Below, in pieces: positions 2,439 to 43,486 of a stretch of 48,627 nt of DNA. The translations under genes were made by a program, and so were the position numbers. Under the pieces are notes generated by a model, which made no database searches, was not told the origin of the DNA, and saw only the letters and a program-made list of their open reading frames with translations. The first letter of the stretch is position 1. Every line of letters begins with the position of its first letter. This DNA comes from a bacterium (GTDB taxonomy: Bacteria; Zhuqueibacterota; QNDG01). The stretch lies in NCBI GenBank assembly GCA_021158245.1, contig JAGGVB010000193.1, positions 1 to 48,627 of the forward strand, read 5' to 3'.

Positions 2439-2887
2439 TTTACTTTACAGGTCATATCCTCAATTTCAATTTTAAAAACACAGGTTGTTGCTGCTTTATA
2501 CTCAGGGATATCAAGATGTTTGCCTGAATAGTGCTTTGTGATAATATCCAAAGCTTTGACTTTTTCTTTATGATTGTCTATAAAAATAACTCTTCCTGAA
2601 CCAATTATACTCTTGTATTTCATATTCCAGCCACATGCTTCTTCCGATTTGACAACCTGAGCATCAATATCAACTTCGAAACACACATTCGGGTTTTGTT
2701 TTAGAATTCTATTCTTTTTACCGGATTTGGAGCTGTGAAAATACAGACATCCATTTTCATATCCGAAACATAGCGGTACTATGTAGGGATTATCACCGTC
2801 AGCCATTACAATACGGCATACAAGTGCTCTTTGCAGTATTTGATTAATATTTTTTTCATCACTATATATTTTTTGATCTAATGACAT
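2435..2887 (-). CDS. Pyridoxamine 5'-phosphate oxidase-like flavin protein (NimA-like)
   Basis: A 150-residue single-domain FMN-binding split-barrel protein. Typical marks are an N-terminal helix, VCRIVMADGDNPYIVPLCF, the strand CLYFHSSKSGKKNRIL and CFEVDI, with a central WNMKYKSIIGSG. This pattern is common to the nitroimidazole-resistance/PNPOx-like family, whose members bind FMN or related cofactors and whose substrates are mostly unknown. The stop codon overlaps the stop of the convergent kinase gene by four bases. It lies 36 bases beyond the hexapeptide transferase gene on the same strand and may be the last gene of that run. Confidence 0.85.
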   Translation of the reverse strand: MSLDQKIYSDEKNINQILQRALVCRIVMADGDNPYIVPLCFGYENGCLYFHSSKSGKKNRILKQNPNVCFEVDIDAQVVKSEEACGWNMKYKSIIGSGRVIFIDNHKEKVKALDIITKHYSGKHLDIPEYKAATTCVFKIEIEDMTCKVN

Positions 2888-2923
2888 GATAGTCCGATTG
2901 TATTTATAAAAACATAAATAATT

Positions 2924-3682: not shown

Positions 3683-3701
3683 GGCTTTCTCCATAAAAGT
3701 A

Positions 3702-5282
3702 TCACCAGTTAACATAAGATGAAATTACTAACTCATCCCAGGATATATTACTTCCTTTAATATTGTCTATATTCTCTGTTCTACATTTTATAAATTTTAC
3801 TGAAAAATAGACATCTCGTCTGGGCTGAAATTTTAATTCAAATTCAGCTTCTTTGAATTTTTCTACAACACCGGAAAGAAAATTCTTAGATTCTCCGTCT
3901 TGTTCTGAATGAGGAGTGTCTATACTTCCCTTACCATGCCTTAATTGCCTTAATGAAATTGCAGATTGAAAAAATATTGAAAATCTGTGCTTTGCTTTAA
4001 TTAAAATCATATCCGAATTCGGCCTGAGATAGTGCCCTAATCCGTAAGTATAGTTCTTAAAGACATTTACCGAATCATGATGTGTATATACAAACGGGTC
4101 TATCTTTGTGTACTCTGCAGTAAATTTCGAATCTGTTAAATGTAAAGGATCAATAACAGAAACTCCCGCCTGCACTGCAAGTTTATTGCCCCAGTAATTC
4201 TGGAAAATATCAAACGGAGAGAACAGATCATCAATAAAAAGCTCTCCGTAAAATTTAAAAGATTTTGCAATTACAGCTTTTAAATCCAGGCCCATACATA
4301 AATTATCCCTGTCACCAAGAGTATGTTCTGCAATAAGGTATGGGATTACAGGATTCAGATATGCAGTTTCTGCCTGCCTTTTGCCGTAAACAACCGCCTC
4401 ATTAATGCCAATTGAAATTCCGCGCAGAGGCAGAATCTCCAATCTGTGGGCAGCTATCCACTTGTGGGAATAGTCACTTCTGAGTTCTCCGTGAATGTAT
4501 GTAAAAAGAGCTCTTCTGCTTATGGGAACAGCTATTTTAAGCATGTCAAATGACGGGGTATTCCCTGACAGGAAAAGAGGAGAATCTTCAGAATATCCCC
4601 ATTTAATATTCTGCCTCCCCCATTCAATCCTGATTCCCTTTAAATTATATGTAAGGTACGCTTCAGCACTATCCCATGTCTTTTCTCTTTTATCCTTTGA
4701 TACACTTTGAGGATAGCCCATTGATGCTTTGTAATGCTGAGTATAAAAATTTCCTGTCTCTCCGAAAATTCTTGCATCGGAATATATTCCTAATTCACCG
4801 ACATTCCCCCTTATAACAGCTCCGTAAAATGCTCTTTTTATGAAATCTCCATTTTCATCATTCTTGTTATTCAGGAATAGAGAGCCTCCCAAAACAACAT
4901 CCGCATAAAAGGAGCTGCCTTTTCCTTTCCAGCCGTAAAAGTGAGGCTCATATTCTTTTTTATCTATTTCACACTTACTGTTTTTAAGTTTATCGTGGAA
5001 TTCTCCCTTTAAGCGTTCAAGTATAGACAAATCCAGTTTTGAAAAATCTCCTTTGTGTGCTTTTACGTAAGAGTCTATTATTTTAACATATTCTGCAGCT
5101 TTATCACGTGAAAAAGGCTTTGTACCCATTATTCTGCCGCTCAAAGCACCTTTAATATTCATCCTGTCAAAATAGCAGTATGCATAGTGATCAAGAGGAA
5201 GATTAACACTCTGACTGTAAACAATATCGGTTATTGTAAAAATCAATGCACCTGCAATGAAAGTACTGATTCTTCTTTTCAT
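3702..5282 (-). CDS. Wzi-type capsule assembly outer-membrane protein
   Basis: A 526-residue protein with an N-terminal signal peptide (about residues 1-23, ending near VYSQS) and many alternating strands expected of an outer-membrane barrel. It shows features of the Cap_assemb_Wzi family: an N-terminal helical segment after the signal, the stretch WGRQNIKWGYSEDSPLFLSG and repeated aromatic barrel strands. Wzi of E. coli anchors capsule at the surface; homologues in FCB bacteria are widespread and mostly uncharacterised. The ATG is preceded by GGAG four bases upstream. It sits between the S8 protease (10 bases away) and the hexapeptide transferase, which suggests a surface-related group. Confidence 0.75.
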   Translation of the reverse strand: MKRRISTFIAGALIFTITDIVYSQSVNLPLDHYAYCYFDRMNIKGALSGRIMGTKPFSRDKAAEYVKIIDSYVKAHKGDFSKLDLSILERLKGEFHDKLKNSKCEIDKKEYEPHFYGWKGKGSSFYADVVLGGSLFLNNKNDENGDFIKRAFYGAVIRGNVGELGIYSDARIFGETGNFYTQHYKASMGYPQSVSKDKREKTWDSAEAYLTYNLKGIRIEWGRQNIKWGYSEDSPLFLSGNTPSFDMLKIAVPISRRALFTYIHGELRSDYSHKWIAAHRLEILPLRGISIGINEAVVYGKRQAETAYLNPVIPYLIAEHTLGDRDNLCMGLDLKAVIAKSFKFYGELFIDDLFSPFDIFQNYWGNKLAVQAGVSVIDPLHLTDSKFTAEYTKIDPFVYTHHDSVNVFKNYTYGLGHYLRPNSDMILIKAKHRFSIFFQSAISLRQLRHGKGSIDTPHSEQDGESKNFLSGVVEKFKEAEFELKFQPRRDVYFSVKFIKCRTENIDNIKGSNISWDELVISSYVNW

Positions 5283-5292
5283 GTTTCTCCGT

Positions 5293-7533
5293 TCATTTTA
5301 TCAGCAGCATTTTACCTGTAATAATTTGATTTTTAATTGAAACCTTATAAATATAAATTCCTGAAGGCGGAATACTGTTTAAATTTTCAGATGTATTCCA
5401 TACAATCCTTGTTTCCCCGCTTGTGCTGATTTTTTTAAAGCTGGAAAATACTTTTCTTCCTCTTATTGAATAAACACTGAAATACATATTAACCGGGAAT
5501 TTTACTCCGTTTTCAGGAATTTTTACTATTATGTTTGATGTACTGTTAAAAGGATTGGGAAATGCATTTGAAACTGTAAACTTTTCAGGAATAATTCTGC
5601 TATTTTCATCTATAACTTGCATCCGAATCCCCTGCATAGATTTAAATGCGTCAAACTTACCGAATCCCCACACCGGATCCCAGTATTCACCTTGAAGAAC
5701 ATCGTTCTGCGCTCCATATATGATTGCACTTTTTACCTGTGAGGCTGAAAGATTCGGATTCTTTTCAAAAAATAGTGCTATTGCTCCTGTCACATGCGGA
5801 GCAGCCATACTTGTTCCTCTCATGGCATAATGCACACTGTCTGTTGCAATATAATGATAATCAGGGCTGTAATGGACAAATGAAGACAGAGATGAAACAA
5901 TGTACTCTCCCGGAGCTGTAATTGTCGGTTTTTGCCAAAACTCTGAGAGACTCGGCCCGGGACTGGAAAAATGACATATATCACCTGCTGTTATATCTCC
6001 GGGCCCCCATGGATCGCTAAAAAGGCTTGGCCATTCTGTACGTGAAACATATGCTCCGACTGCTATTGTAAACATGCTGTTTCCAGGCTCTGCAACAAGA
6101 TAATCATTTGAATAATTGTCCGATATATGCGCTGAAACGGATGTATCATAAAGCCACCCGTGGAATTGACCTGCATTGCCGTAAAAGGTCAATTTCCACT
6201 TTCCTTGATACAAATTATCAACAAATCCGTTTTGCGTACGGGAATCGGAAATTGTCAGAAGCATCTCCACATCAGAAGAAGTTTCCGATGGTTTTCCTAT
6301 TGTCAGATATACTGTCCCGGAATCTGTATCAAATTTATAATCTCCCTGATCCTTTACAGGGCCCACAACTTCCCCTTTGGGGGTTGTTACTTTTATCTGC
6401 AGAGCAGTATAATCTATTGACCATATATCAAATGACACATAATCTTCTACGTTTTCGCTGATGCAGTCAACTGAAAACTCAACAACAGCGCTGTCATCTA
6501 ACGTTGGTGAAGGTTCTCCATTAGAAAGTTCTCCGGTAAAGTGAATCGGTCTCTGGCCGTCATTCCCTGCAGCAACAACTATTGCCCTTCCTTTTTCCCC
6601 TGAAAGCAAATTATCCATATACTTTTCATAATCACTTGTACCATTGTGAGGACCTCTCTGAGTCCCGAAACTGATATTTACGACAGCAGGTTTGCCAAGC
6701 TGCCTGGCTTTTTCAAAAATGTATGAAGCTGCATCACAGATATTTGAGGAAGGTACAATACCATTGTCTGCGAGTTTTACAATAATCAAATCTGCTTCAG
6801 GTGCCATGCCCACATATACACTGTCATCCATGGAGTTCCCTGCAGCCCTTCCATTCCCTGCTGCGATTCCTGCAACATGAGTACCATGGCCGGAATAATC
6901 TTTGCCTCCTATATTCAGATAATGATTTGCCAATGCATCATTAATTTGTGAATTTGTAAATTCAGTTCCGTAACCTGCAGAAGGGGCCGGCCCGGCTTTA
7001 TCAGTCTGGTCCCAGATAAATAAAATTCTGGATTTGTTATCATTTGTAATAAAATCTCTATTAGTCCAGTCAATACCATAATCTGCAATTCCGATTATTA
7101 CATTTTTACCTGTGTATGAAGTGCCTGAAACCCCGCTGTGAAGTTTGTCAACTCCAATATCCTTTATGCTGATATCCAGCATGGGATTGCACATTGCAGC
7201 AGCATCAACGGATTCTATTCCGGGAATCTGTGATAATAATTTAAGCTGGGATATTGATATTCTTGCAGTAGCAATATTCCCTGCAGCAGTACTTATACGA
7301 ATGCCGTTTTGGGACAATCTTTCAGGATGTTCTGTATTAATAAAAATATTTATAAATTCTTTATCTGAATTATTTTTGTATATTCCCTGTGTATCATCTG
7401 CTTTAAGCATCTGCAATTTATGCCTTAAAGACGGGGACATAATATTTTTCAAGTCCTGGGCAAAACTGAATGAATATAAAACAACTGTCAAAATCAATAT
7501 TAAAAATTTAACAAACCTGCCGGCTCTATTCAT
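5293..7533 (-). CDS. Secreted subtilisin-like S8 protease with T9SS sorting domain
   Basis: A 746-residue exported serine protease. Residues 1-25 form a signal peptide; a pro-region follows. The catalytic triad is visible: Asp near 151 (GIADYGIDW), His near 216 (SGHGTHVAG) and Ser in RGTSMAAPHVTGA. An insert of beta-sandwich character separates His and Ser. The last 80 or so residues, from VSNAFPNPFNSTS to GKMLLIK, form a type A T9SS C-terminal sorting domain, so the protein is expected to cross the outer membrane by T9SS. A GTG at 7557 would extend it by eight residues into xerD; the ATG at 7533 starts a better signal peptide and has CAGGT upstream. The gap to xerD is 7 bases. Confidence 0.92.
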   Translation of the reverse strand: MNRAGRFVKFLILILTVVLYSFSFAQDLKNIMSPSLRHKLQMLKADDTQGIYKNNSDKEFINIFINTEHPERLSQNGIRISTAAGNIATARISISQLKLLSQIPGIESVDAAAMCNPMLDISIKDIGVDKLHSGVSGTSYTGKNVIIGIADYGIDWTNRDFITNDNKSRILFIWDQTDKAGPAPSAGYGTEFTNSQINDALANHYLNIGGKDYSGHGTHVAGIAAGNGRAAGNSMDDSVYVGMAPEADLIIVKLADNGIVPSSNICDAASYIFEKARQLGKPAVVNISFGTQRGPHNGTSDYEKYMDNLLSGEKGRAIVVAAGNDGQRPIHFTGELSNGEPSPTLDDSAVVEFSVDCISENVEDYVSFDIWSIDYTALQIKVTTPKGEVVGPVKDQGDYKFDTDSGTVYLTIGKPSETSSDVEMLLTISDSRTQNGFVDNLYQGKWKLTFYGNAGQFHGWLYDTSVSAHISDNYSNDYLVAEPGNSMFTIAVGAYVSRTEWPSLFSDPWGPGDITAGDICHFSSPGPSLSEFWQKPTITAPGEYIVSSLSSFVHYSPDYHYIATDSVHYAMRGTSMAAPHVTGAIALFFEKNPNLSASQVKSAIIYGAQNDVLQGEYWDPVWGFGKFDAFKSMQGIRMQVIDENSRIIPEKFTVSNAFPNPFNSTSNIIVKIPENGVKFPVNMYFSVYSIRGRKVFSSFKKISTSGETRIVWNTSENLNSIPPSGIYIYKVSIKNQIITGKMLLIK

Positions 7534-7540
7534 AATAATT

Positions 7541-8473
7541 TTACCTGTCAATTTCACGAGGATGAAAAGTTCTGATCACCTCTTTTAAAAATTCACGGTC
7601 AAGATGCGTATAAATCTGAGTAGTTGAGATGTCCGAGTGCCCAAGCATTTCCTGGACAGCTCTCAGGTCTGCTCCGCCTTCGAGAAGATGCGTTGCAAAG
7701 GAATGCCTTAGAGTATGAGGGCTGATATTTTTTTTTATCCCCGCTTTTAAAGCATACTCCTTCAAATTTTTCCATACTGAAATACGAGACATTCTGGTTC
7801 CGCGTATACTCAGAAAAAGAAAATTTCCTGCCTTGCCTTTTAATGCAAGAACAGGACGTACATCCTTAAGATACATATTTATATAATAAACAGCACTGTC
7901 GCCTATTGGGACCATTCTCTCCTTGCTTCCTTTTCCGAAAACTCTGCAAAAACCTTCATTCAGATTCAAATTACTGAATGATATATTAACAGCTTCGGAA
8001 ACCCGCACACCTGTTGCATACATAAATTCAAACAGAGCCCTGTCTCTCAGCCCTTTTTTTGTTTTTAAATTCGGAGTCCTGAGTATTTGATCAACTTCGT
8101 TTATATTCAATACAGTAGGCAGGTACTTCTTCAGTTTCGGCGTTTCAAAATTCAATAAAGGGTTTTGTAATAATTCTCCGTTTTCATAAAGAAACATGTT
8201 AAACATTTTTATAGCGCTTATATTTCTTGCAATGCTGGAGTTTGCCATTCCTGTTTTTTTTAGAATCATGACAAGCTCGTTTATATGTTTAGATTCCACA
8301 TCATCAAGAGTTTCTATCCTTTTTCCCTGCAGGAACGACAGATATCTCTTTATATCATTCTGATAAGCTTTTTTTGTGTTGTCAGACAGGCCCTGATCAA
8401 GAATAATATGCTGCAGGAATCTTCTTAAAAGGGATTCAAAATCTGACTTCCTATCTGATGAACGGATTTCCAT
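7541..8473 (-). CDS. xerD: Tyrosine recombinase, XerD/XerC family
   Basis: A 310-residue site-specific recombinase. The N-terminal SAM-like core-binding domain spans about residues 10-100 and the catalytic domain about 115-305. Catalytic residues visible are Arg in YATGVRVSEAVNI, HTLRHSFATHLLEGG (His-x-x-Arg), the LGHSD histidine and the tyrosine nucleophile in TTQIYTHLD. Length and motifs fit the chromosome-dimer resolving Xer proteins rather than a phage integrase. The frame is open upstream for 74 more codons, but those lie antisense-free inside the MBL gene and look non-native; GAGGAG four bases before the ATG at 8473 fixes the start. XerC versus XerD cannot be decided here. Confidence 0.92.
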   Translation of the reverse strand: MEIRSSDRKSDFESLLRRFLQHIILDQGLSDNTKKAYQNDIKRYLSFLQGKRIETLDDVESKHINELVMILKKTGMANSSIARNISAIKMFNMFLYENGELLQNPLLNFETPKLKKYLPTVLNINEVDQILRTPNLKTKKGLRDRALFEFMYATGVRVSEAVNISFSNLNLNEGFCRVFGKGSKERMVPIGDSAVYYINMYLKDVRPVLALKGKAGNFLFLSIRGTRMSRISVWKNLKEYALKAGIKKNISPHTLRHSFATHLLEGGADLRAVQEMLGHSDISTTQIYTHLDREFLKEVIRTFHPREIDR

Positions 8474-9095
8474 TTCGCTCCTCGCCAACAGTCGTTTTCG
8501 GACCGTGGCCGGGGTACACAACAGTATCATCCGGCAATGAGAGAATTTGCTTTTGTATTGAATCCAACAGCTGCCCGGATGATCCTCCGGGAATGTCAGT
8601 ACGGCCAATCCCTCCTTCAAAGAGTGTATCACCGACAATGACAAAACCATTACCTGCAAGCCCGATACTGCCCGGTGTATGGCCTGGTATCTCAATTACA
8701 TCAAGCGTGAGAGATCCTATTTTAATTTTGCTCCCCTGTGAAATATTAGAAACCTTCCCGTCATATTTATAATCCAGGCCGAGAAATGCTGAAAAATTTC
8801 TCACACTATCACGAATAAGAATCTCATCCTTTTTATTAATAAAAACTTCAGCTCCTGTTTCCATAACAATTTTATGCAATGCGCCTATGTGGTCGTAATG
8901 TCCGTGAGTAATCACTATTTTAACAGCATTCCAGCCTTCATCTGCAAGTTCCTGCAGAATAATTTCAGATTCATCTCCCGGATCAACAACGCAGGCTTCT
9001 TTTGTACTGCTATCTGCAACAAGTATACAGTTTGTTTCAAGAGGTCCGACAGCAAAAGATTTAATTTTCAGATTACTCTTCTTCTCTTTTTCCAT
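8451..9095 (-). CDS. MBL-fold metallo-hydrolase (GloB/YcbL-like)
   Basis: A 214-residue metallo-beta-lactamase-fold hydrolase. It has the metal-binding THGHYDHIG motif, a GHTPGSIG histidine, the GDTLFEGGIGRTD aspartate and a closing YPGHGPKTT histidine, i.e. the two-metal site of glyoxalase II-like enzymes. Such proteins hydrolyse thioesters such as hydroxyacylglutathione, but without the C-terminal glutathione-binding domain of true GloB the substrate is uncertain. It overlaps xerD by 23 bases at its end and the QueG-like gene by 23 bases at its start. AAGG lies six bases before the ATG. Confidence 0.9.
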   Translation of the reverse strand: MEKEKKSNLKIKSFAVGPLETNCILVADSSTKEACVVDPGDESEIILQELADEGWNAVKIVITHGHYDHIGALHKIVMETGAEVFINKKDEILIRDSVRNFSAFLGLDYKYDGKVSNISQGSKIKIGSLTLDVIEIPGHTPGSIGLAGNGFVIVGDTLFEGGIGRTDIPGGSSGQLLDSIQKQILSLPDDTVVYPGHGPKTTVGEERNGNPFIR

Positions 9096-9756
9096 AACAA
9101 GCCTTAACGCATACTCCGCATATATACTGTCCGATACCTTTTATTTTGGAAAATTCTTTTAACTTATTATAACACAACGAAAAATTATAATCTGATGCTT
9201 TTTCGCCAAGCGCTTCTGCCGGGCATTTCGAGATACACCGCGTGCAACTTCCACAGCCGAATTCCACCGGTGAATCGGTTTTCAATGGTATATCAGTCAG
9301 GACAGTTATAAGCCTGATCTGCGAACCGTACTTTTCATTAACAATAAGATTGTTCCGGCCTCTCCATCCCAGGCCTGCTGCTTCAGCAACAAGCCTGTGC
9401 GAAACATGCGCTACCTGTTTTTCCCAGTCAATTATCTGCGATGCAGGAACAGGCAGGGCTTTATACCCTCTTCTCATTATCTCCTGTGTCATGAGGAATG
9501 CATTATTGTCAAGATTAATATTTGCCTGGCGATAATGCCATTTGTAAAGTAAGGTGGGTCGATCCTCAATTCCATATAGAACTTCTTTTGAAAGAACTGT
9601 TGCCATTGATATTCCATACTTCATACCGGACAACTCTTTATCGGAAAGATAAAAATACTTCTTCAAAGGTTCGATATATGCCACACCGAATAGTTGAATA
9701 CCTTTATCAATTACCAATTCTTTTAATTCGGAATAATTCTTCTCCTCAGGAGTCAT
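9073..9756 (-). CDS. QueG-like 4Fe-4S protein (short form)
   Basis: About 227 residues. The C-terminal third has two cysteine clusters, CGSCTRCISKCP and later CGVCVKAC, matching the double 4Fe-4S module of epoxyqueuosine reductase. Upstream are MKYGISMATVLS and EAAGLGWRGRNNLIV, the QueG-family core. It is shorter than QueG (usually above 300 residues), and the segment before AAGLGW reads VSHRLVAEA where QueG normally has an Asp used as general acid. I therefore call it a QueG paralogue rather than a proven epoxyqueuosine reductase, although tgt lies in the same gene run. The ATG at 9756 is preferred; 9774 is possible. The open frame continues upstream into the neighbouring gene. Confidence 0.75.
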   Translation of the reverse strand: MTPEEKNYSELKELVIDKGIQLFGVAYIEPLKKYFYLSDKELSGMKYGISMATVLSKEVLYGIEDRPTLLYKWHYRQANINLDNNAFLMTQEIMRRGYKALPVPASQIIDWEKQVAHVSHRLVAEAAGLGWRGRNNLIVNEKYGSQIRLITVLTDIPLKTDSPVEFGCGSCTRCISKCPAEALGEKASDYNFSLCYNKLKEFSKIKGIGQYICGVCVKACYGKREEE

Positions 9757-10204
9757 CTTCTTTTCTGCCTTCATCCGGTAAAACAGTTTCAGCAAGGGAA
9801 AGAGCAATTCCTGAAAGCATAACTTCCGGGCCCAATTTTGTAAAATCACCGGAAAGTATCTCGGTTTCAACATTTGAATAGAGCGAACAGCCTGCTCCCT
9901 TCTCAATTATCAATCCGGACAATCTGCTCTTGTGTTCAGCGATAAATGTAACTTCTCCAAGCATTTCACTCACAACATATCCGGAGCAGAAATGGAGCTG
10001 AAGATGTGTAGATAACGTATAAACGGATATAAGATTTCCTCTTTTATCTCCGATAGGAATATCAGGATAAATCTCAAGAGAAAGTTTGCGATTTTCTTTT
10101 TTGTTTTCAAGTACCATTCTGAAACATTGCCCTTCTTTTTCATACTCTGTTTCAAGTACCCGGGCAATTTTGTCAATATTTTTTTTATCAAACATGAAAG
10201 TCAT
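9746..10204 (-). CDS. Conserved-looking hypothetical protein, 152 residues
   Basis: I do not recognise this protein. It has no signal peptide, membrane segment or cysteine cluster. It begins with a charged helix (MFDKKNIDKIARVLETEYE), continues with a strand-rich middle (SLEIYPDIPIGDKRGNLISVY, then LQLHFCSGYVV and VTFIAEHKSRLSGLIIEKG) and ends with a helix near LGPEVMLSGIALSLAETVLP. The frame could start at a TTG (10222), but the ATG at 10204 has GAGG about nine bases upstream. It overlaps the QueG-like gene by 11 bases and follows the lipid kinase gene by 23, so it is probably co-expressed with both. Confidence 0.7.
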   Translation of the reverse strand: MTFMFDKKNIDKIARVLETEYEKEGQCFRMVLENKKENRKLSLEIYPDIPIGDKRGNLISVYTLSTHLQLHFCSGYVVSEMLGEVTFIAEHKSRLSGLIIEKGAGCSLYSNVETEILSGDFTKLGPEVMLSGIALSLAETVLPDEGRKEDDS

Positions 10205-10227
10205 ATCTCTTTTCCTCTTCAAAAATG

Positions 10228-10797
10228 TTATAGGAAAAGCACAATGTGCATTACAATTCCGGAAATAAGAGGTATTGTAATATTGTCGTCAATTTTATCA
10301 ATAAAAATATCCGCTGCTGTTCCTGCAGCCATTCCTGTTAACCCCGCAGCAAAAGGAAGGTTCGGCACAGCAAGTATTATCAGAAATCCTGTTGCTATAA
10401 AAACAAGACAGCCTATACATGTTTTATCTTTAAATAATTTTCTTTTACCCCATTTTTTGCCTGCCAGGGCGCTTAGAGCGTCAGATAAAGCGACAAAAAG
10501 CATAACTGAGATTGCAACACTTTGATTAAATATAAGAACAGAAACATAAAAAGCTATTAAAAGATTTGTTGCACCTGTAAATTTCTGTTTTTCATGAAAC
10601 CGCAATAATGGGCCTACAATTTTATCAAAAATTTTAGCACATTTAAAACTGAAGAATCTGCAGAGTTCAACGCTGACAGCGAAAACAATCAATAATCCCA
10701 GAATAAATAATAATTCATGTTTTTCAATAAACAAATAAGAAATAGGAAAAACAACAGAGCTTATGTGTATTACTTTTCTCTTTAATTCCTGTCTCAT
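10228..10797 (-). CDS. Diacylglycerol/polyprenol kinase family membrane protein
   Basis: A 189-residue protein with about six hydrophobic segments. The start RQELKRKVIHISS, the central DALSALAGKKWGKRKL with DKTCIGCLVF, and the closing DIFIDKIDDNITIPLISG are the marks of the SEC59/VTE5/DGK1-type CTP-dependent lipid kinases, which phosphorylate dolichol, phytol or diacylglycerol in the membrane. The bacterial members are poorly characterised, so the lipid acceptor is unknown. It lies 25 bases from rpe on the same strand. Confidence 0.85.
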   Translation of the reverse strand: MRQELKRKVIHISSVVFPISYLFIEKHELLFILGLLIVFAVSVELCRFFSFKCAKIFDKIVGPLLRFHEKQKFTGATNLLIAFYVSVLIFNQSVAISVMLFVALSDALSALAGKKWGKRKLFKDKTCIGCLVFIATGFLIILAVPNLPFAAGLTGMAAGTAADIFIDKIDDNITIPLISGIVMHIVLFL

Positions 10798-10822
10798 CTC
10801 AAATTTTCTCCTATTTGTTCAA

Positions 10823-11485
10823 TCATAGTATTGAATTTCTAATTTCCTCGACTCCGGTTTTGGGCCCTTTTTTATGTTTGAATACAGACGAGCCTGCAAC
10901 AAGGACATCAGCCCCTGCACGAACTGCCCGTACTGCAGTTCTCGAATTAATTCCTCCGTCAACTTCAATTTTTGTATTAAAAGATGATGAACTAATAATT
11001 TTTTTAAGCCCTGTTATTTGCCGTTCAGCGCTTTCAATATATTTCTGCCCGCCAAAGCCGGGATAGACACTCATAACAAGCACAATATCAATATATTTTA
11101 ATAAATGTACAACCCTGTTAATCTCTGTATCCGGATTAATTGCAATACCGCATTTCGTGTTACTTTCTTTAATCCTGGTTATAATTTTATTGTGGTCGAC
11201 ATCAAGTTCGACATGAAAGATAATACCGTCAACACCTGCATCAACAAAGGGATTGACATAGGCCTCGGGATCTTCAATCATTAAATGAGCCCACAGCTTT
11301 AGTTTTGTGACTTTTCGTACAGAAGCGGCAACAACCGGCCCGAAAGATATATTCGGCACAAAGTGGCCGTCCATAATATCGAGATGGAGAGAATTAATAC
11401 CCACATCTTCCACTGACCGGATATCTTTTTCAAGATTTGCAAAATCCGCAGCAAGTATAGAAGGACTTATTTCAACATTGTTCAT
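10823..11485 (-). CDS. rpe: Ribulose-phosphate 3-epimerase
   Basis: A 220-residue TIM-barrel enzyme interconverting ribulose 5-phosphate and xylulose 5-phosphate in the pentose phosphate pathway. Visible motifs are PSILAADFANL at the start, HLDIMDGHFVPNISFGP with the metal-binding His and Asp, MSVYPGFGGQKY, and EVDGGIN followed by AGADVLVAGSSVFK for phosphate binding. Length fits the family. A TTG lies one codon earlier; the ATG at 11485 overlaps the stop of the PASTA gene by one base (TGATG). Confidence 0.97.
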   Translation of the reverse strand: MNNVEISPSILAADFANLEKDIRSVEDVGINSLHLDIMDGHFVPNISFGPVVAASVRKVTKLKLWAHLMIEDPEAYVNPFVDAGVDGIIFHVELDVDHNKIITRIKESNTKCGIAINPDTEINRVVHLLKYIDIVLVMSVYPGFGGQKYIESAERQITGLKKIISSSSFNTKIEVDGGINSRTAVRAVRAGADVLVAGSSVFKHKKGPKTGVEEIRNSIL

Positions 11486-32895: not shown

Positions 32896-33963
32896 TTAGA
32901 GAGAATGCTCAATATCAAGCATCTTTGTACCTTTAAAATACTCTACAGTAACAGGATGCGAGATATGTGCAAGTTTTTGGGTGATTTCTTTTATCCTTAA
33001 GGCATTTTTAACGATAATTCGAAGCCTGTTTCTTATATCTTCATCTACTATTTTTTTGTCTTGTAATAAAATTTGAGCATTGCCTAAAATTGGTACAAGT
33101 GGATTATTAATTGCATGATTTACCGCAATTGCAGTTTCAATAATTGTTGCAACCCTTTCAGAATCGTTTAATTCTATATTAATGTTATTGCCCGGGTCAC
33201 TCTTTCTGGCAATTACAAGAGATCCTACAATTTGATTGGAACTGTTTTTCATCCTGCACACAGAAAGGTTGAGATTGAATATATCTCCTTTTTTGTCTTT
33301 TACCCTGGCATTGTAATTTGTAATCTGATTGCTCTTTTTTAGGAGTTCATAAATCTTAAGCATCTCTTCAGAGCCATTAACAAATAAAAAATTTACCTTT
33401 TCTCCTATTACTTCTTCAAAGGTAAATCCAAGCATCTCTTCACACGCGCTGTTACAATAAGTAATGACACCCTTATTATCAGTTGTCAATATAGCATCAA
33501 GTGTATTTTCAACTACACGTTCAAGAAAATCTTTTGCTTCTCTAATTGTCTCCCAAAATTGAATCTCTTCCATCTTGACTTTATGTGCAATTAGAGCATC
33601 TTCAACAAATTCAATTATTTCCGAGCTGGTAAAAGGTTTTGCCAGAATAGCGTTAAATCCAAGATTATAAAGATGCGATCTGTCTGCCTGCCCGTTTGTG
33701 GTTAATGCAATAAAAGGTATGTCTCTGATGAATTTATTTTTCTTATCTGCAATAAATTTAATATAAAGTTCCTCTCCGGAAATATCCGGGAGGAAATAAT
33801 CTACAATTACAATATTCGGGCTTATCTTTCCAATTTTTCCAAGCCCTTCTTTACCTGATTCACATAAATAGCAATCATAGTCCTTATTATTTTTAAATGC
33901 TGATTCCGCAATTTCTCTGAATTTCTTATCATCATCAATAAAGAGTACTTTCTTTTTATCCAT
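32896..33963 (-). CDS. REC-PAS-DHp protein lacking a kinase ATPase domain
   Basis: A 355-residue protein. Residues 1-125 form a receiver domain (FIDDDKKF, phosphorylatable Asp in IVDYFLPDISG, Lys in AKPF); about 140-255 is a PAS domain (TLDAILTTDNKGVITYCN); about 265-340 is a HisKA-like helical pair with the His in NHAINNPLVPILGNAQ. There is no ATP-binding domain after it: the protein ends MLDIEHSL. It can take phosphate at Asp and possibly at His but cannot make it, so it may be a phosphotransfer or scaffold protein. It starts two bases after the stand-alone receiver gene stop. Confidence 0.88.
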   Translation of the reverse strand: MDKKKVLFIDDDKKFREIAESAFKNNKDYDCYLCESGKEGLGKIGKISPNIVIVDYFLPDISGEELYIKFIADKKNKFIRDIPFIALTTNGQADRSHLYNLGFNAILAKPFTSSEIIEFVEDALIAHKVKMEEIQFWETIREAKDFLERVVENTLDAILTTDNKGVITYCNSACEEMLGFTFEEVIGEKVNFLFVNGSEEMLKIYELLKKSNQITNYNARVKDKKGDIFNLNLSVCRMKNSSNQIVGSLVIARKSDPGNNINIELNDSERVATIIETAIAVNHAINNPLVPILGNAQILLQDKKIVDEDIRNRLRIIVKNALRIKEITQKLAHISHPVTVEYFKGTKMLDIEHSL

Positions 33964-33965
33964 TA

Positions 33966-34337
33966 TCAGGCACCGATTTTTTCTGCAACAAGCTGTTTTA
34001 GAGTATTTAGATCCCAGGGTTTTGAAACCATAATTGTTCCGCTGTGTTTATCTTCTGTTATACAGCCGAATCCAATATCAAGGTAACCTGATGTAAGGAC
34101 ACGAACCGTTTCAGGGTTAAGTACTTTGACTTTTTCCAGCAGATTCACACCTGACGAATCCGGCAATTTCAGATCGGAAAGTACAAAATCAACATTGTTA
34201 TTTTCAATAATATCGAGAGCTTCATCAACCCGTGTTGCAGTGTAAAGGTTGTAACCTTCATCTTGAAAGAGGTCGCTTAGTATATCCAGAATTTCAGGTT
34301 CATCATCTACAAAGAGTAAAGCTTTACTGCTGTTCAT
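33966..34337 (-). CDS. Stand-alone response regulator receiver
   Basis: A 123-residue receiver with the acidic pair in FVDDEPEIL, the phosphorylation Asp in DFVLSDLKLPDSSG, Thr in VLTSG and Lys in VSKPW. There is no output domain. An earlier in-frame start is possible, but GGAGGA sits three to four bases before the ATG at 34337. A sigma54-type promoter lies about 66-81 bases upstream. It is followed at once by the REC-PAS-DHp gene, with which it probably exchanges phosphate. Confidence 0.93.
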   Translation of the reverse strand: MNSSKALLFVDDEPEILDILSDLFQDEGYNLYTATRVDEALDIIENNNVDFVLSDLKLPDSSGVNLLEKVKVLNPETVRVLTSGYLDIGFGCITEDKHSGTIMVSKPWDLNTLKQLVAEKIGA

Positions 34338-34402
34338 GGTTCCTCCGCTCATATAGAACTCTATTTTTATCAACAACTTATTCGTTCTCTAACCATCAAA
34401 AA

Positions 34403-34418
34403 AGCAACATTTGTGCCA
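34403..34418 (-). promoter_or_regulatory. Sigma54 (-24/-12) promoter
   Basis: The minus strand reads TGGCACAAATGTTGCT, an exact match to TGGCAC-N5-TTGC(A/T), with GG and GC separated by ten bases. Transcription would start near 34392 and enter the receiver gene after about 55 bases of leader. RpoN-dependent initiation needs an AAA+ activator, and none is encoded in this window. Confidence 0.8.
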
Positions 34419-34434
34419 CTGCCGGGGCACAAAT
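34409..34434. repeat. Perfect 9-bp inverted repeat overlapping the sigma54 promoter
   Basis: atttgtgcc (34409-34417) and ggcacaaat (34426-34434) are exact complements separated by eight bases. One arm covers the -24 box and the spacer of the sigma54 promoter. It could be a protein-binding operator. It lies upstream of the predicted start site, so it should not form a hairpin in the message. Confidence 0.6.
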
Positions 34435-34647
34435 ACTAAACCTTTAATTAACACGATCTTATGTTTTATTTTAATCAGCTGATGAAATAATTTATTTTTA
34501 AATTTCAAGGCAATGTTTTCCGGCGCTCGGATTAATTTTCCGAATGCGGTTTGCAGGAAGATGAAATGAGTTTAGGCCTCGCTCCTACAATCTGCCCTGT
34601 TCTATCTTCCAATATTTTACCACCCCTCTGGTGGGCCGTCTGTTTAA

Positions 34648-34752
34648 TGTCATTGCGATGATTCCGCACAAACACAAGACGTGACAATCTTTATAATTGT
34701 GCACGAATTTCGGAGATTGCTTTTTCCGGCAGAGCCGGAATCACAATGACAA
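34648..34752. repeat. REP/MITE-like imperfect palindromic element
   Basis: The ends, tgtcattgcgatgattccg and cggaatcacaatgaca, are inverted copies of each other with a small offset. Internally, gacaatct pairs with agattgc. A 7-bp perfect hairpin (ttccggc aga gccggaa, 724-740 of this kilobase) sits at the right end. The pattern gtcattgcga...ggcaatct...gagattgct...caatgac is a dispersed repeat familiar from many bacterial genomes. It does not encode a protein. Confidence 0.6.
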
Positions 34753-34992
34753 ATTTGGGACTTTTGATACAGCCCCGACATATTTTTGTTTATCGTAATA
34801 TTTTAAATTTTAACACCAAAACAGAATTTTATCTGCAATTGCATTCCAAGATTAGAGTTTTGAACTGAAAAAGCGGTAGGGTAATTTTTTCTTAAATAAA
34901 TATTTTTGTTCCGATTATTAAAACAGAACTTTATGTTTTATATTTTTTACTAATCAATTTTCTCGGGCTACCGCGGCAGCCTCCGGTTTTAA

Positions 34993-35795
34993 TTATTTCA
35001 GCAGCGGAATAATAACCTCAAATGGTTCATCTACGCCTATTTGCATATCAAAATTTTGAAGTTTAGCTATCACCGGATAACTTATTTCCTGCCCTTTTGC
35101 AACGAGAAGAAGACCATTTTTTGCATGTATGTCCTGATTCGCAGTCATGCCGAATATTAATTCTTTCACCCTTACCATCTTTAACCTGTTTTCAATTTTA
35201 TCAATTTTATATGTTGCTATACAGGAAAGAACTTCGGGATGGCTTTTGTAATGTGGTCTACATACCTTCTAACCCGGGAAGCCTGACTAAAAGCAGCCGG
35301 CAGAATCCCGAATAGGTGAAGCCAAATCAGCAATCTGATATTCTTTCCCGTCCTTTGCAATGAGCACTGTGTGATTGGCAAGCCCTGCAATTTCACCATT
35401 TTTAAGTACCTTACTGGCCGGATTGATGACTTTCTTACCGGTTTTAGCATTCATAATATTTAAGACTTGAGTTAGAGGCCTTCCTTCAGCTTTCCCGGTT
35501 GTCCAGCCGGTGAGATTTGCGGCCACCGGATTCATTCTGGTAATCCGCCCCTTTGTGTCGGTGGCAATAATCGCGTCACCAATGCCTGTAAGATCGCATC
35601 AAGCCAGGTATCGCGTTCTCTGAGTTTATTATCCATCTCATGTTTATAAAGCGCTGTTTCAATCACGGCCTTTAAATCTTCGGCTTTAAACGGCTTATAG
35701 ATAAATCCATACGGTTCTGTCTTCTTGGCTCTCTTTAGTGTATCTTTATCAACATAGGCAGTTACATAAACCACGGGAAATTTTACTTGATTTGA
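34993..35795 (-). pseudogene. Decayed REC-PAS-HD-type response regulator
   Basis: Fragments of one regulator lie in order on the minus strand. The second half of a receiver (from FPVVYVTAYVDKDTLKRA to YGFIYKPF) is followed by LDAILQ; a one-base deletion near 35585 then shifts the frame to GIGDAIIATDTKGRITRMNP, a PAS domain that ends at SPIRDSAG. A larger deletion follows. The last piece, in frame from HPEVLSCIATYKIDKIENRL through VRVKELIFGMTANQDI to EPFEVIIP, matches the C-terminal tail of RpfG-like response regulators. The first half of the receiver, with its Asp, is missing. It lies beside intact REC/PAS genes and is probably an old copy of a related regulator. Confidence 0.8.
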
Positions 35796-35854
35796 ATAAT
35801 TTACAGTTTGACGTTCAGAATTAAAAATTCAGCTCCACATAGCAAGGCTATTGT

Positions 35855-37249
35855 TTAAAACGGGAAAACAACATTAAACTCTTTAAATCCATCACCCTGG
35901 ACAACTTTTAATATGCCATCCAACTGTTCTGTCAAGTCAGAAATAATAGCCATACCCAGCGTATCAACCTCGGAGGATTTAAAACCGGGCGGCAGAGCAA
36001 TCCCGTCATCCCGGACGGATAGATGAACTTTTCCGGATTTTTCTTCCAACCGGATATCAATTTCACCCTTCCGTTTATCCGGGAACGCGTGTTTTATAGC
36101 GTTGGAGACAAGCTCATTTATGATCATGCCGCAGGGAATGGCCCGGTTTAAATCAATCTGAACATTTTTGCATTTATCAATAATTTTGATCTGTTCGGCA
36201 TTCTGATAGTAAAGCAGGGTTAGAGAAGCAATCAGTTTATTGATATAATACTTCATATCTATCCGCGCGAAATCCTGATTCTGATACATCATCTCATGCA
36301 CAATTGACATGGATTGAATGCGGCTTTTGCTTTCATTTAAAATCATGGAAATACGTTCGTCATTAATTTTTGAGGCCTGCAAACTCAGCAGGCTTGACAT
36401 GATCTGGAGGTTATTCTTCACCCGGTGGTGAATCTCCTTGAGCATGATCTCTTTTTCTTTCAGATCTCTCTTTATTTGTTCTTCCGCCTGCTTGCGTTCG
36501 GTGATGTCATTGAACACAGCAACTATTTCTTTGGTTTGTAATTTATATACAAAATTTTCATACCAGCTATGAATTTTTTCATCCTGATAAAATGTAATGG
36601 GATGATACGCAGGTTTACCTGTTTTCCATACTTTGCGAAATACATCAATAAGACCAAACTTTTCTACTTCAGGTCTCATTTCGAAAATACTTTTACCAAT
36701 AAGATCATCCCTTTTATCATTGCCTAATCTTTCAGCAGCTTTATTGAAATCTTTAAAAATAAAATCTTTTCCATCATCTATGACATCATAAACCGCTACA
36801 CCGCTACTTATATTATCAAATAATTCTTTATATCGGATTTCACTTTCTTTTAGTGCTTGTTCTGCCAGTTTATTTTTATCCTTCTCTATTTTTAATTTAA
36901 GCGCATTTTCAATTGCAGGAGTTAATCTTAACAGGTTTTCTTTAAGAATATAATCCCATGCGCCTCTTTTAATGGAATCAACAGCCATTTCTTCTGAAAG
37001 GGAACCCGTTACAATAATGAACGGAATATCCGGGATTAGTTTTTTGGCAATTTCCAATGCTTCAAATCCTGTGAATTGGGGCAGAGCATAATCCGAAAGG
37101 ATAATATCCGGTTTGAAGTCGTGGATAGCTGCTATAAAATCCTTTTCCGTTTCTACGCACTCAGAAATAAAATCAAATTTATGCTCCGTCAACTCTTCTT
37201 TGATAAGTTTTGCATCAAGCTTATTATCTTCCAGCATTAATATTTTCAT
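35855..37249 (-). CDS. REC-PAS histidine kinase (HisKA_2)
   Basis: A 464-residue cytoplasmic protein. The receiver (about 1-120) has LEDNKLDAKL, Asp in IILSDYALPQFTG and a helix ending in ILKENLLRLTP; a PAS domain (about 140-255) follows; the HisKA_2 box EIHHRVKNNLQIM (about 268) and an ATP-binding domain (about 355-464, IINELVSNAIKH, VRDDGIALP, LGMAIISDLT) close it. The receiver lacks a standard KP lysine motif, having LKEN. Such REC-first kinases are controlled by an upstream phosphodonor. AAGGAAG lies seven to eight bases before the ATG; the Rcp-type receiver ends 12 bases earlier. Confidence 0.94.
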   Translation of the reverse strand: MKILMLEDNKLDAKLIKEELTEHKFDFISECVETEKDFIAAIHDFKPDIILSDYALPQFTGFEALEIAKKLIPDIPFIIVTGSLSEEMAVDSIKRGAWDYILKENLLRLTPAIENALKLKIEKDKNKLAEQALKESEIRYKELFDNISSGVAVYDVIDDGKDFIFKDFNKAAERLGNDKRDDLIGKSIFEMRPEVEKFGLIDVFRKVWKTGKPAYHPITFYQDEKIHSWYENFVYKLQTKEIVAVFNDITERKQAEEQIKRDLKEKEIMLKEIHHRVKNNLQIMSSLLSLQASKINDERISMILNESKSRIQSMSIVHEMMYQNQDFARIDMKYYINKLIASLTLLYYQNAEQIKIIDKCKNVQIDLNRAIPCGMIINELVSNAIKHAFPDKRKGEIDIRLEEKSGKVHLSVRDDGIALPPGFKSSEVDTLGMAIISDLTEQLDGILKVVQGDGFKEFNVVFPF

Positions 37250-37773: not shown

Positions 37774-40700
37774 TCAGGCGTCGGATAATGTAAAAAAGAA
37801 AGAAGCACCTTCATTTATCTTTCCCTCTGCCCGGATGTCCCCGCCATGTTTCATTATTATTCGTTTCACATTTGCCAATCCGATACCGGTACCCGGGAAC
37901 TCATTAATGCTGTGTAAGCGTTGAAAGACACCAAATATTTTATCTACATATTTCTGATCAAAGCCAACCCCATTATCTTTGATGAAGAAAATGGTATTAC
38001 CGTCTGTATCTTTCTCTGTGCCAATATGAATTTCAGGATTTTTCTCTTTACCGGTAAATTTAATAGCATTCGAGATAAGATTTACCCACGCCTGCCTTAT
38101 CAAAGAAACATCGAGATTAACATCGGGCATGTCATCAACTATGATAGAGATATTATTCTCTTTGATATCAGAATCAAATATCTGCATTGCTTCATCTATT
38201 ACTGTTTTCATATTGATATTGATCTTTTTCACATCTTTTCTACTCATCCTTGAGAAAACAAGCAGATCGTCGATGAGTTGGTTCATTTGTTTGGAAGCGC
38301 TAATTATATTATCAAAATAATTCTGTGATTTTTCATCAATTATGTGCTTAATGTTTTTATTCAGAAGTTTGGTAAATCCGTCAATATGGCGCAGAGGAGC
38401 ACGCAGGTCGTGTGAAACCGAATAGGAAAAAGCTTCCAGTTCTTTATTGGCAGCTTCCAGTTTTTTATTAGATACATCGAGTTCTACTCGTGATTCATTT
38501 ACATCTTCCAGGAGTAGAGCAAGGGATTGCTGGGATTTTTCAAGTTTCTTGTTTTTTTCTTCTAATTCTGCTGTTCGTTCCTTGACGAGTTCTTCCAGGT
38601 GTTCACGGTGTTTTCGTAGTTCTGCCTCTGCCTGCTTGCGCATGGTGATGTCTTTCATAATACCAAGCCTCCGGTAAGCTTTCCCTTTTTCATCAGCAAG
38701 AAAAAGGCCGCTATCCTCCATATAAAAATAAGTTCCATCCTTGTGTTTGAAACGATACTCCACATGATAATTGGAACATTCCTTCATGGCTTTATCGAGC
38801 AGCGTCAATGCAGCCTTGTGGTCATCAGGATGTATTCGCTTTTCCCAGCCGGATATATCGACCTTCTGAAACTCCTTGAGAGTAAAACCTGTAATCGTCT
38901 GAATATCCCCCGACCAGCCGATCTTGCCTGTAAGAATATCGTAATCGTACAGTATTTGACCAGATTGTTCTGCCAGCAGACGGTATTTTTCCTCGCTTAT
39001 TTCCAGGCTTATGTTTAGTTCATTTAATTCTTCGTTTCTGCGGCGTATAGCTCTTGTTCTTAGCTTGTAAATAAAAATTGCAGCAGACAGTATTGACAAG
39101 ATTAATAGAACACGAAACCACCAGATCTGCCAAAATGGAGGAGGCACTATTATTTTTAATGATGCCCCTTCTTCATTCCAGATACCATCATTATTACAGG
39201 CAATAACACGAAAGCAATAGGAACCCGGGGGAATATTGGTGTAATATGCCGTCCGGCGTGTTCCTGCGTCAATCCATTCTTTGTTCCACCCTTCTAATTT
39301 GTACTTAAATTTCACTCTTTCCGGGACCAAAAAACTGAGACCCGTATAGTGAAACTCAAAATCCTTATTCCCCGGAGAAATTTGAATTACCCCGCTCGCG
39401 GCAAAAGATCTATTGTCAATAATGACGTGCTCGATGAGCACCGGAGGAGGTAGCTTATTAGTCCTTATATTTTCCGGATTAATCATTACCACACCCCTTA
39501 TGGTCGGAAACCAGAGCTTTCCATCCCTGCTCTTCCAACCCGCCGGCTGAAAGCCACCATTGCATTCTTTACTCATCATACCATCCGGCTCGCCATAAGA
39601 AATAGAATTAATTGAACTTATTTTTCCCTCTGCAAAATCGTTGAGCTCTCTCATGCTGACCCGGAAAATACCATTGTTGCAGCTCATCCATAAGTTCCCT
39701 TTTCCATCTTCAAGGATCTGCCATACAGAATCATCAAACAAACCTTCTTTAGTGGTATAGGCTGTGAATTTCCCATCTTTTAACCGGTTGAGACCGCCAC
39801 CTCTTGTGCCAATCCAGAGACTTCCTTCTCCGTCCTCATAGATTGACCTCACAAGATCGTTAGACAATCCCTCCTTAGTGGAGTAGACCGTAAATTTCCC
39901 ATCCCTTAATCTGTTTAATCCACCACCGTCCGTGCCAATCCAGAGACTGCCTTCTCTGTCCTCATAGATTGACCTCACCATGTCGTTAGACAATCCATCT
40001 TTGGTGGTATAGGCTGTGAATTTTCCATCCCTCAATCGGTTAAGTCCGCCACGCCATGTGCCAATCCAGAGACTGCCCTTTCTGTCCTCATAGATTGACC
40101 ACACCATGTCGTTAGACAATCCCTCTTTGGTGGTATAAACCGTAAATTTACCATCCTTTAATCTGTTTAATCCTTCTCCCGTGCCAATCCAGAGACTGCC
40201 CTCTCTGTCCTCATAGATTGACTTCACAAGATCGCTGGACAATCCCTCCTTAGTGGTGTAGACCGTAAATTTATCATCCTTTAATCTGTTTAATCCACCA
40301 CCGTCCGTGCCAATCCAGAGACTGCCTTCTCTGTCTTCATAGATCGACTTCACAAAATCGTTAGACAATCCCTCTTTGGTGGTATAAACCGTAAATTTCC
40401 CATCCCTTAATCTGTTTAATCCACCACCTTCCGTGCCAATCCAGATACTGCCTTCTCTGTCCTCATAGATCGACTTCACTATGTCGTCAGACAATCCCTC
40501 TTTGGTGGTAAAGGCTGTGAATTTTCCATCCTTAAATCGGTTAAGGCCACCACTATATGTGCCAATCCAGAGACTGCCATTTCTGTCCTCATAGATTGAC
40601 CACACCATGTCGTTAGACAATCCATCTTTGGTGGTATAGGCTGTGAATTTCCCATCCCTTAATCTGTTTAATCCTTCTCCTGTGCCAATCCAGAGACTGC

Positions 40701-41403
40701 CCTCTCTGTCCTCATAGATTGACCTCACAAAGTCGTTAGACAATCCATCTTTGGTGGTATAGGCTGTGAATTTTCCATCCCTCAATCGGTTAAGCCCGCC
40801 ACCTCCTGTGCCAATCCAGATACTGCCCTCTCTGTCCTCATAGATTGACCTCACAAAGTCGTTAGACAATCCATCTTTGGTGGTATAGGCTGTGAATTTT
40901 CCATCCCTCAATCGGTTAAGGCCGCCACTATATGTGCCAATCCAGATACTGCCCTTTCCGTCCTCACAGATTGACCACACCATGTTGTCAGACAATCCCT
41001 CTTTGGTGGTATAGGCTGTGAATTCTTTGTCTTTTAATCGGTTAAGCCCGCCACCATACGTGCCAATCCAGAGACTGCCCTCATGATCCTCAAAAAGTGT
41101 TAAAATGTGACTGTCTTTTATATTTTTAGTATTTTTCTTGTCAAACACAGTAAACCTTACGCCATCGAAACGTACAAGACCTTCCTGAGTTCCGAGCCAG
41201 ATGTAGCCATCACGAGTCTGGAGTATGGCTGTTATAGTGCTTTGCGGAAGTCCATCCTCTACCTGCCATACATCATGAACATACTGTGTAATGGTTTTAT
41301 CAGGATCAAGCGCCCAGGCAGTAACGGGCTCACTCAGAATTATGATCAAAAGAAGAAATCCAACCGCTTGGTAAAATAAACACCTTAATTTATTTTTCAC
41401 CAT
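37774..41403 (-). CDS. Two-component propeller sensor histidine kinase
   Basis: A 1209-residue one-pass membrane kinase. A signal anchor (about 8-31) is followed by 14 propeller blades (about 38-640), i.e. two seven-bladed Reg_prop domains, a Y_Y_Y domain (about 650-755), a membrane helix (about 762-780), a PAS domain (about 805-920), a coiled coil, HisKA with SYSVSHDLRAPLRHIDG (about 985) and a HATPase with N and G boxes (WVNLISNAIKF, DNGVGFD, GTGIGLANVKRI). No receiver or AraC domain is attached, unlike the Bacteroides hybrid systems. The periplasmic propellers probably sense a ligand such as an oligosaccharide. Ten blades are nearly identical to each other in DNA. Confidence 0.94.
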   Translation of the reverse strand: MVKNKLRCLFYQAVGFLLLIIILSEPVTAWALDPDKTITQYVHDVWQVEDGLPQSTITAILQTRDGYIWLGTQEGLVRFDGVRFTVFDKKNTKNIKDSHILTLFEDHEGSLWIGTYGGGLNRLKDKEFTAYTTKEGLSDNMVWSICEDGKGSIWIGTYSGGLNRLRDGKFTAYTTKDGLSNDFVRSIYEDREGSIWIGTGGGGLNRLRDGKFTAYTTKDGLSNDFVRSIYEDREGSLWIGTGEGLNRLRDGKFTAYTTKDGLSNDMVWSIYEDRNGSLWIGTYSGGLNRFKDGKFTAFTTKEGLSDDIVKSIYEDREGSIWIGTEGGGLNRLRDGKFTVYTTKEGLSNDFVKSIYEDREGSLWIGTDGGGLNRLKDDKFTVYTTKEGLSSDLVKSIYEDREGSLWIGTGEGLNRLKDGKFTVYTTKEGLSNDMVWSIYEDRKGSLWIGTWRGGLNRLRDGKFTAYTTKDGLSNDMVRSIYEDREGSLWIGTDGGGLNRLRDGKFTVYSTKEGLSNDLVRSIYEDGEGSLWIGTRGGGLNRLKDGKFTAYTTKEGLFDDSVWQILEDGKGNLWMSCNNGIFRVSMRELNDFAEGKISSINSISYGEPDGMMSKECNGGFQPAGWKSRDGKLWFPTIRGVVMINPENIRTNKLPPPVLIEHVIIDNRSFAASGVIQISPGNKDFEFHYTGLSFLVPERVKFKYKLEGWNKEWIDAGTRRTAYYTNIPPGSYCFRVIACNNDGIWNEEGASLKIIVPPPFWQIWWFRVLLILSILSAAIFIYKLRTRAIRRRNEELNELNISLEISEEKYRLLAEQSGQILYDYDILTGKIGWSGDIQTITGFTLKEFQKVDISGWEKRIHPDDHKAALTLLDKAMKECSNYHVEYRFKHKDGTYFYMEDSGLFLADEKGKAYRRLGIMKDITMRKQAEAELRKHREHLEELVKERTAELEEKNKKLEKSQQSLALLLEDVNESRVELDVSNKKLEAANKELEAFSYSVSHDLRAPLRHIDGFTKLLNKNIKHIIDEKSQNYFDNIISASKQMNQLIDDLLVFSRMSRKDVKKININMKTVIDEAMQIFDSDIKENNISIIVDDMPDVNLDVSLIRQAWVNLISNAIKFTGKEKNPEIHIGTEKDTDGNTIFFIKDNGVGFDQKYVDKIFGVFQRLHSINEFPGTGIGLANVKRIIMKHGGDIRAEGKINEGASFFFTLSDA
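39655..41034 (-). repeat. Tandem 126-bp (123-bp) propeller-blade repeats
   Basis: Eleven consecutive in-frame units of 42 residues (two are 41) encode blades 3-13, each starting (K/R)DGKFTxYTTK(E/D)GLS and ending WIGTxxGGLNRL. Blades 3-12 are almost the same. For example 40696-40794 and 40822-40920 are identical over 99 bases at an offset of 126. Such identity suggests recent unequal crossing-over or gene conversion. Confidence 0.9.
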
Positions 41404-42875: not shown

Positions 42876-43486
42876 TTACGATGGACGATAGACGAGAGGA
42901 CTAACGAGTCGTACAGAATGAGTCTGCTTTTCGTTCTATTGTAATGAGTTGTGCAACTGTGCTCATACTTTTCGTCCAATCTTTTAAATAGTTCAAGATG
43001 CAGGATTCAGTCTATGATTTATGGCCTTTCATTACTGATTCCCTGAAATTATAAATCTTTTTTCCAAGTTCCTCATAGCAACTCACAAAATATTCAAAGC
43101 GATTCTTTATTAATGATCCCGTTCCAAAAAGTATTTCTAAATGATATTTAGTTTCATCGCAGGACGCAACACTATATGTTAAAAAATGGACGAATTCTCT
43201 TTTATATCTTCTCCTCCCATAATCTTCAACAATATTGGCTCCTGTCGACTTTGCAGAACGTCTGATTTGTTGTCCTTCTTCATACATTTCAAATTTAGGA
43301 AGTTCCTCTAAAGTCATTTTATGAATCTCAACGGCTAATTTCTTAGCCAACTGATAAATCTCCAAATCCTTATAACTTTGCGCCTTACTCACTCGACACG
43401 ACCTCCTCTGCATCATGTATTCTCTTGCATCCTGCATCTTGTATCCTGTATTTCATCCCTCTTCCCTCATCTTTCGTCCTTCGTTA
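42876..43486. repeat. Nested inverted repeats flanking the four-helix-bundle gene
   Basis: Two inverted pairs surround the gene. The inner pair is caagatgcaggattca (42994-43009) against its reverse complement at 43426-43441 (15 of 16 match). The outer pair is 42876-42897 (ttacgatggacgatagacga) against 43465-43486 (17 of 22 match). Purine-rich direct repeats of caggatrcaaga lie within the upstream arm. The arrangement suggests a small mobile or formerly mobile cassette; no transposase is present. Confidence 0.55.
43012..43392 (-). CDS. Four-helix-bundle protein (23S rRNA IVP/S23 family)
   Basis: A 126-residue all-helical protein: YKDLEIYQLAKKLAVEIHKM, IRRSAKSTGANIVEDYGRRR, FVHFLTYSVASCDETKYHLEI and a last helix. 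This is the pattern of the family first seen in intervening sequences of 23S rRNA genes and now known as stand-alone genes; function unknown, probably nucleic-acid related. An in-frame ATG at 43437 exists, but AGAGGAGGT precedes the GTG at 43392 by eight bases and that start gives the normal length. It sits inside nested inverted repeats between the two kinase-less sensors and does not look like a signalling protein. Confidence 0.88.
   Translation of the reverse strand: MSKAQSYKDLEIYQLAKKLAVEIHKMTLEELPKFEMYEEGQQIRRSAKSTGANIVEDYGRRRYKREFVHFLTYSVASCDETKYHLEILFGTGSLIKNRFEYFVSCYEELGKKIYNFRESVMKGHKS

Follow-up and report, generated by a model that had tools for sequence, protein, structure and literature searches.

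The stretch of DNA analysed here, the window, is contig C193 (48,627 nucleotides) of a 3.21-Mb assembly in 233 contigs. Its features of interest are a gene for a single-domain receiver, followed by a gene for a protein combining receiver, PAS and DHp domains, and the elements in front of them, all read on the minus strand:

34529..34541, minus strand: GGAAAATTAATCC, box 1 of a putative upstream activator site, a tandem dyad that orthologues share
34509..34521, minus strand: GGAAAACATTGCC, box 2, which completes the dyad
34405..34438, minus strand: terminator-like hairpin, its 3' arm being the -24/N5 part of the promoter, then a T run
34403..34418, minus strand: putative sigma-54 promoter core (-24 TGGCAC, -12 TTGCT, N5 = AAATG), exact consensus conserved in orthologues
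34392..34392, minus strand: predicted transcription start (+1), from sigma-54 promoter geometry, the C of the -12 GC (34404) being taken as -12
33966..34337, minus strand: receiver (REC), first gene of the unit, single-domain (PF00072, 2.9e-16)
32896..33963, minus strand: REC-PAS-DHp, second gene of the unit, 355 aa (PF00072, PAS, weak HisKA, no HATPase_c, that is, no CA domain)

The probable promoter core and its surroundings

On the minus strand, 34418-34403 reads TGGCACAAATGTTGCT. This is an exact sigma-54 consensus, of the form TGGCAC-N5-TTGCW with GG-N10-GC spacing kept. The receiver ATG (34337) comes 66-81 bp downstream of it and is the correct start of that gene: orthologues share this start, and a GGAGG ribosome-binding site precedes it. 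Site, spacing, orientation and distance had been proposed in an earlier, sequence-only reading of this DNA, and re-reading the minus strand bears them out. The same reading placed the site in a long intergenic region. There is indeed a gap upstream of the site (34377-35854), but it carries a dispersed repeat and decayed REC-PAS frames, so that it is not plain intergenic DNA. The repeat is about 80 bp long (match core 34695-34776), with some 15 other partial copies in the genome; it stands where the window's species departs, upstream of the enhancer, from the same-genus genome G001 (which matches QNDG01000001, candidate division KSB1 bacterium isolate B43_G9), and it is possibly a rearrangement point. 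The decayed frames (35287-35774), two short adjoining ones whose likeness to a REC-PAS protein was seen by eye, with no Pfam match, sit between a kinase gene (35855-37249) and the promoter.

Between 34376 and 34600 the minus strand has no site resembling a sigma-70 promoter, and the nearest one (34687-34658, 9/12) is at chance level. Further away, TGGCAC...GGTGG matches spaced regularly, by multiples of some 125 bp (39797-41065), were rejected as promoters: they are coding repeats of a 1209-aa Reg_prop/Y_Y_Y kinase. A gene of the 23S rRNA intervening-sequence protein family (PF05635) lies within the two-component island at 43012-43437.

Conservation of the probable promoter and of a putative tandem enhancer

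The named relatives are metagenome assemblies of the KSB1 group. Twelve genomes of the class were examined, with that of the window as G000, and eleven of them have one clear orthologue of the receiver (the exception is G006), the proteins of the ten relatives being 54-67% identical to the window's. In front of the orthologue GG-N10-GC is present in 11/11 genomes, with GG and GC at invariant positions, and TGGYAY-N5-TTGC in ten; G011, the exception, reads GGGCATGGAACTTGC and retains GG-N10-GC. Between site and start there are 56-85 bp in most genomes; in G004 and G009 the distance is 154 bp. When each upstream region is shuffled with its dinucleotides kept, such a site turns up in about 0.001 of the shuffles. 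Pairwise identity reaches 76% in the promoter columns, against 30% in the 80 bp upstream and 33% downstream, so the promoter is under selection. The eleven genomes are related, hence not fully independent tests. At the two homologous loci that stand farther off in the phylum (G015 and G019) there is no such promoter, and the switch is thus confined to the class.

The genome has what such a promoter would need. It contains one copy of rpoN, on contig C181 (PF04552, 3.1e-61), with a full RpoN box ARRTVAKYRE, and about 17 strong genes for AAA+ activators of sigma-54 (PF00158). The whole genome has 14 exact copies of TGGCAC-N5-TTGC and a single copy of the reversed pattern. Of the 14 sites, 11 are outside genes and face a downstream start codon, ten of these within about 130 bp. 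The excess and the placement of the sites together indicate that the standard sigma-54 consensus is the one in use here. Conservation in relatives, rpoN and AAA+ activators were the checks proposed with the sequence-only reading: the site is there in all eleven orthologous upstream regions, and both kinds of gene were found.

A second conserved block stands out in the alignment: GGMAAWNNNNNCC appears twice, some 19-21 bp apart (20 bp in the window, at 34541-34509). For NtrC-type activators the usual site is a pair of dyads spaced by two helical turns and located some 100-150 bp ahead of the start. In ten genomes the tandem block starts at a distance of 122-125 bp from the -24 T, on its upstream side, and G008 has a degenerate version, so that this conserved dyad is a putative binding site for an upstream activator, in line with the general scheme of NtrC-type sites (PMC7175178). 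In a pattern search of the 12 genomes the dyad pair, with a fixed 7-bp spacer pattern, was found once in the window's 3.2 Mb genome, at the receiver locus. A wider regulon was considered and rejected: hits of the tandem pattern away from that locus (in G004, G005, G006 and G008) are about as common as those of reversed-pattern controls.

The promoter of the window is overlapped by a hairpin of 13 pairs followed by a T run, on the same strand. Its predicted stability is -16.1 kcal/mol, compared with -16.6 in G002 and -20.5 in G010 (z of -2.1, more precisely -2.05, then -2.9 and -5.4). The hairpins of G002 and G010 occupy the same place, with different arm sequences; in all three genomes the left arms differ and complementarity is kept. 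G001 and most other orthologues have no unusually stable hairpin, which means that the hairpin is not the conserved thing. A conserved palindromic operator over the promoter was rejected as a sequence-specific site, the palindrome being missing in most orthologues and differing in sequence where present.

How should these elements be read? Taken by itself, the match to the consensus is no more than suggestive, as looser sigma-54 matches (two mismatches at most) number 28 in the window and 31 in shuffles, that is, chance level. One might then see here a single exact match that happened to arise among many near-consensus sites in 48.6 kb. This would ask for a quite extraordinary coincidence: exact TGGCAC-N5-TTGCT occurs once in the whole window with 0.05 expected from shuffles, it is found at the corresponding position in 11/11 orthologues, which span an order and whose flanking DNA has diverged, and there is the genome-wide excess of 14 to 1. 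The sequence-only reading had held the site unlikely to be there by chance, and the expected number and the conservation among relatives uphold that view. It is also very improbable, if somewhat less so, that the site just ends the unit upstream as an intrinsic terminator, whose GGCAC arm and whose TTGCTTTTTT tail mimic a sigma-54 promoter. The hairpin and its T run lie exactly at the site, and strong hairpins are found in G002 and G010; however, most orthologues, same-genus G001 among them, keep TGG-Y-A-Y-N5-TTGC with no stable hairpin, GG and GC are invariant when the left arm is not, and a terminator has no need for an enhancer-like block at a fixed distance. The motif at 34418-34403 is therefore, judging above all from its conservation, very probably a real sigma-54 promoter.

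Granting a real sigma-54 promoter, the transcript might run through REC-PAS-DHp into the genes of a 335-aa protein, yicC, gmk and beyond. These follow on the same strand in G000, G001, G003, G004, G008 and G009, but in G002, G005, G007 and G010 unrelated genes or long gaps come after the two-gene unit, and in the window the gene that comes after REC-PAS-DHp is 108 bp away; we hold such a longer unit to be unlikely. (In G002, the next gene after REC-PAS-DHp encodes a DUF4097 'toastrack' protein.) RpoN control of exactly the receiver and REC-PAS-DHp genes is well supported by conservation, and the control of these two genes by RpoN that had been put forward earlier finds support in the conservation of the site, rpoN and the activators. 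The whole would probably make a sigma-54 switch with one activator and one operon.

Part of the conservation could still serve termination, and the hairpin may insulate the unit from read-through. A bolder proposal, on the doubtful side, is that in at least three lineages (G000, G002 and G010) the strand of the -24/-12 elements is also the 3' arm of an intrinsic terminator. If this were true, the same 30 bp would stop transcription arriving from upstream (in G002 and G010, from the activator operon) and launch sigma-54 transcription of the feedback pair, insulating a switch that must not leak.

The probable activator and the target proteins

In nine of the eleven genomes, the gene directly upstream of the boxes encodes the same NtrC-type response regulator (REC-AAA+-HTH_8); in the window's genome and in G001 the activator gene is not adjacent to the promoter. 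The orthologue of the window's genome is at C230:2236-3615. Its product, of 459 aa, is a REC-AAA+-Fis HTH (HTH_8) protein that shares 69% identity with the query, the protein of G008, and its AAA+ domain has the GAFTGA loop intact near residue 221. G006, which has no receiver, also has no activator above 47% identity. Orthology makes this protein the probable cognate activator of the receiver promoter, and adjacency in relatives makes its link with the dyads probable. Tandem enhancer (about 123 bp upstream), overlapping hairpin and probable cognate NtrC-type activator are all absent from the sequence-only reading.

On C230, the activator is preceded by genes for a protein methyltransferase, a PspC-domain protein, a LiaF-like protein, two hybrid kinases and a 233-aa HisKA-like protein with no recognisable HATPase domain, in an order much like that of relatives; the gene order of the cluster (2236-11043, L076) is indeed conserved in several of them. 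Past the activator come pmbA, then a tldD cut off at the contig end, and in G001 a pmbA-tldD pair lies directly upstream of the receiver's enhancer. The simplest history would be that pmbA-tldD was inserted between activator and promoter in the genus, and that a second rearrangement followed in the window's species. That the activator cluster might regulate itself from a site of this type was rejected, as C230 has no strict promoter or tandem box.

As for the targets, the acidic pair, Asp68 and Lys119 (numbered in the TTG-started frame) are invariant in aligned receiver orthologues. The second protein has the same architecture and length in eight aligned orthologues; all eight stop after DHp, and HATPase_c has no match in the window protein or in the orthologue L055. 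That it could be a truncated or frameshifted kinase was thus rejected, length and end being alike in all eight. A distant homologue (L087, 33% identical, from Bacterium BMS3Bbin03, beside flagellar genes) ends after DHp too, which again argues that REC-PAS-DHp is not a broken kinase. The HisKA score of the window protein, 25.3, is just below the Pfam cut-off of 26.9, and that of L055, 32.0, is above it; AlphaFold gives confident REC and PAS domains, with a helical pair and tail of low confidence. Within DHp, His283 and Asn287, four residues on, are invariant in 8/8 orthologues, and the acidic residue expected beside His283 is Ala in seven of them and Glu in L055. In the HisKA kinases studied, this acidic residue is required for kinase activity, and Thr/Asn for phosphatase activity (PMC3510030). 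On that basis the residues present favour a phosphatase or phosphotransferase rather than a kinase. In two orthologues, Glu stands in place of the phospho-acceptor Asp of the protein's own REC (Asp55 in the window).

The scenario that we propose is as follows. The NtrC-family regulator encoded at C230:2236-3615 would bind the tandem dyads (34541-34509), placed at about -149 to -117 relative to the predicted start, and loop to RNA polymerase-sigma-54 at 34418-34403, giving an open complex; the transcript would then yield both the receiver and REC-PAS-DHp. What the analysis shows is the elements, how they are conserved and constantly spaced, rpoN and an intact gene for the activator; that the activator binds and activates, and how far the operon reaches, is what we infer. 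We consider it highly probable, overall, that a working RpoN promoter, with an NtrC-family activator at the dyads, drives this pair. As to purpose, feedback on the same phosphorelay is a tentative suggestion, short of an even chance. A DHp protein devoid of CA cannot autophosphorylate from ATP, and would therefore pass on or remove phosphoryl groups, the small receiver acting as its partner or as a phosphate sink.

Comparison with known systems

The switch, though well made, is of an ordinary, known kind, in a little-studied phylum; a search of the literature for KSB1 together with sigma-54 found nothing. Its value is that activator, enhancer, promoter and target make a complete, testable sigma-54 switch in candidate phylum KSB1, where a spacing of 122-125 bp fixed across an order, and a CA-less REC-PAS-DHp target, provide leads on phosphorelay feedback.

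PspF has no receiver domain, and in this it differs from the activator described here. The cluster of the latter, with its PspC-domain and LiaF-like proteins beside sensor kinases, is like the PspF/psp and QseE-QseF sigma-54 systems of envelope stress (PMC3709507, PMC6075780), and these neighbouring genes suggest, as no more than a hint, an envelope-stress link.

The -24/-12 core with its dyad upstream sites is like that of sigma-54 promoters on which NtrC-family two-component EBPs act, an example being several of the 22 response-regulator EBPs described in Desulfovibrio vulgaris (PMC4641369); there a REC-AAA+(GAFTGA)-HTH activator likewise goes with one neighbouring target operon. Unlike in these systems, the target here is a receiver with a CA-less DHp protein, the enhancer keeps an unusually constant distance from the promoter, and the activator gene has moved away in the window's species. 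Finally, REC-PAS-DHp resembles the stand-alone histidine phosphotransferases of DHp type, ChpT (PMC3433190), Spo0B and PhyT (PMC5898713): it has a predicted DHp-like helical pair with a conserved His and, as with them, no ATP-driven kinase activity is expected of it.
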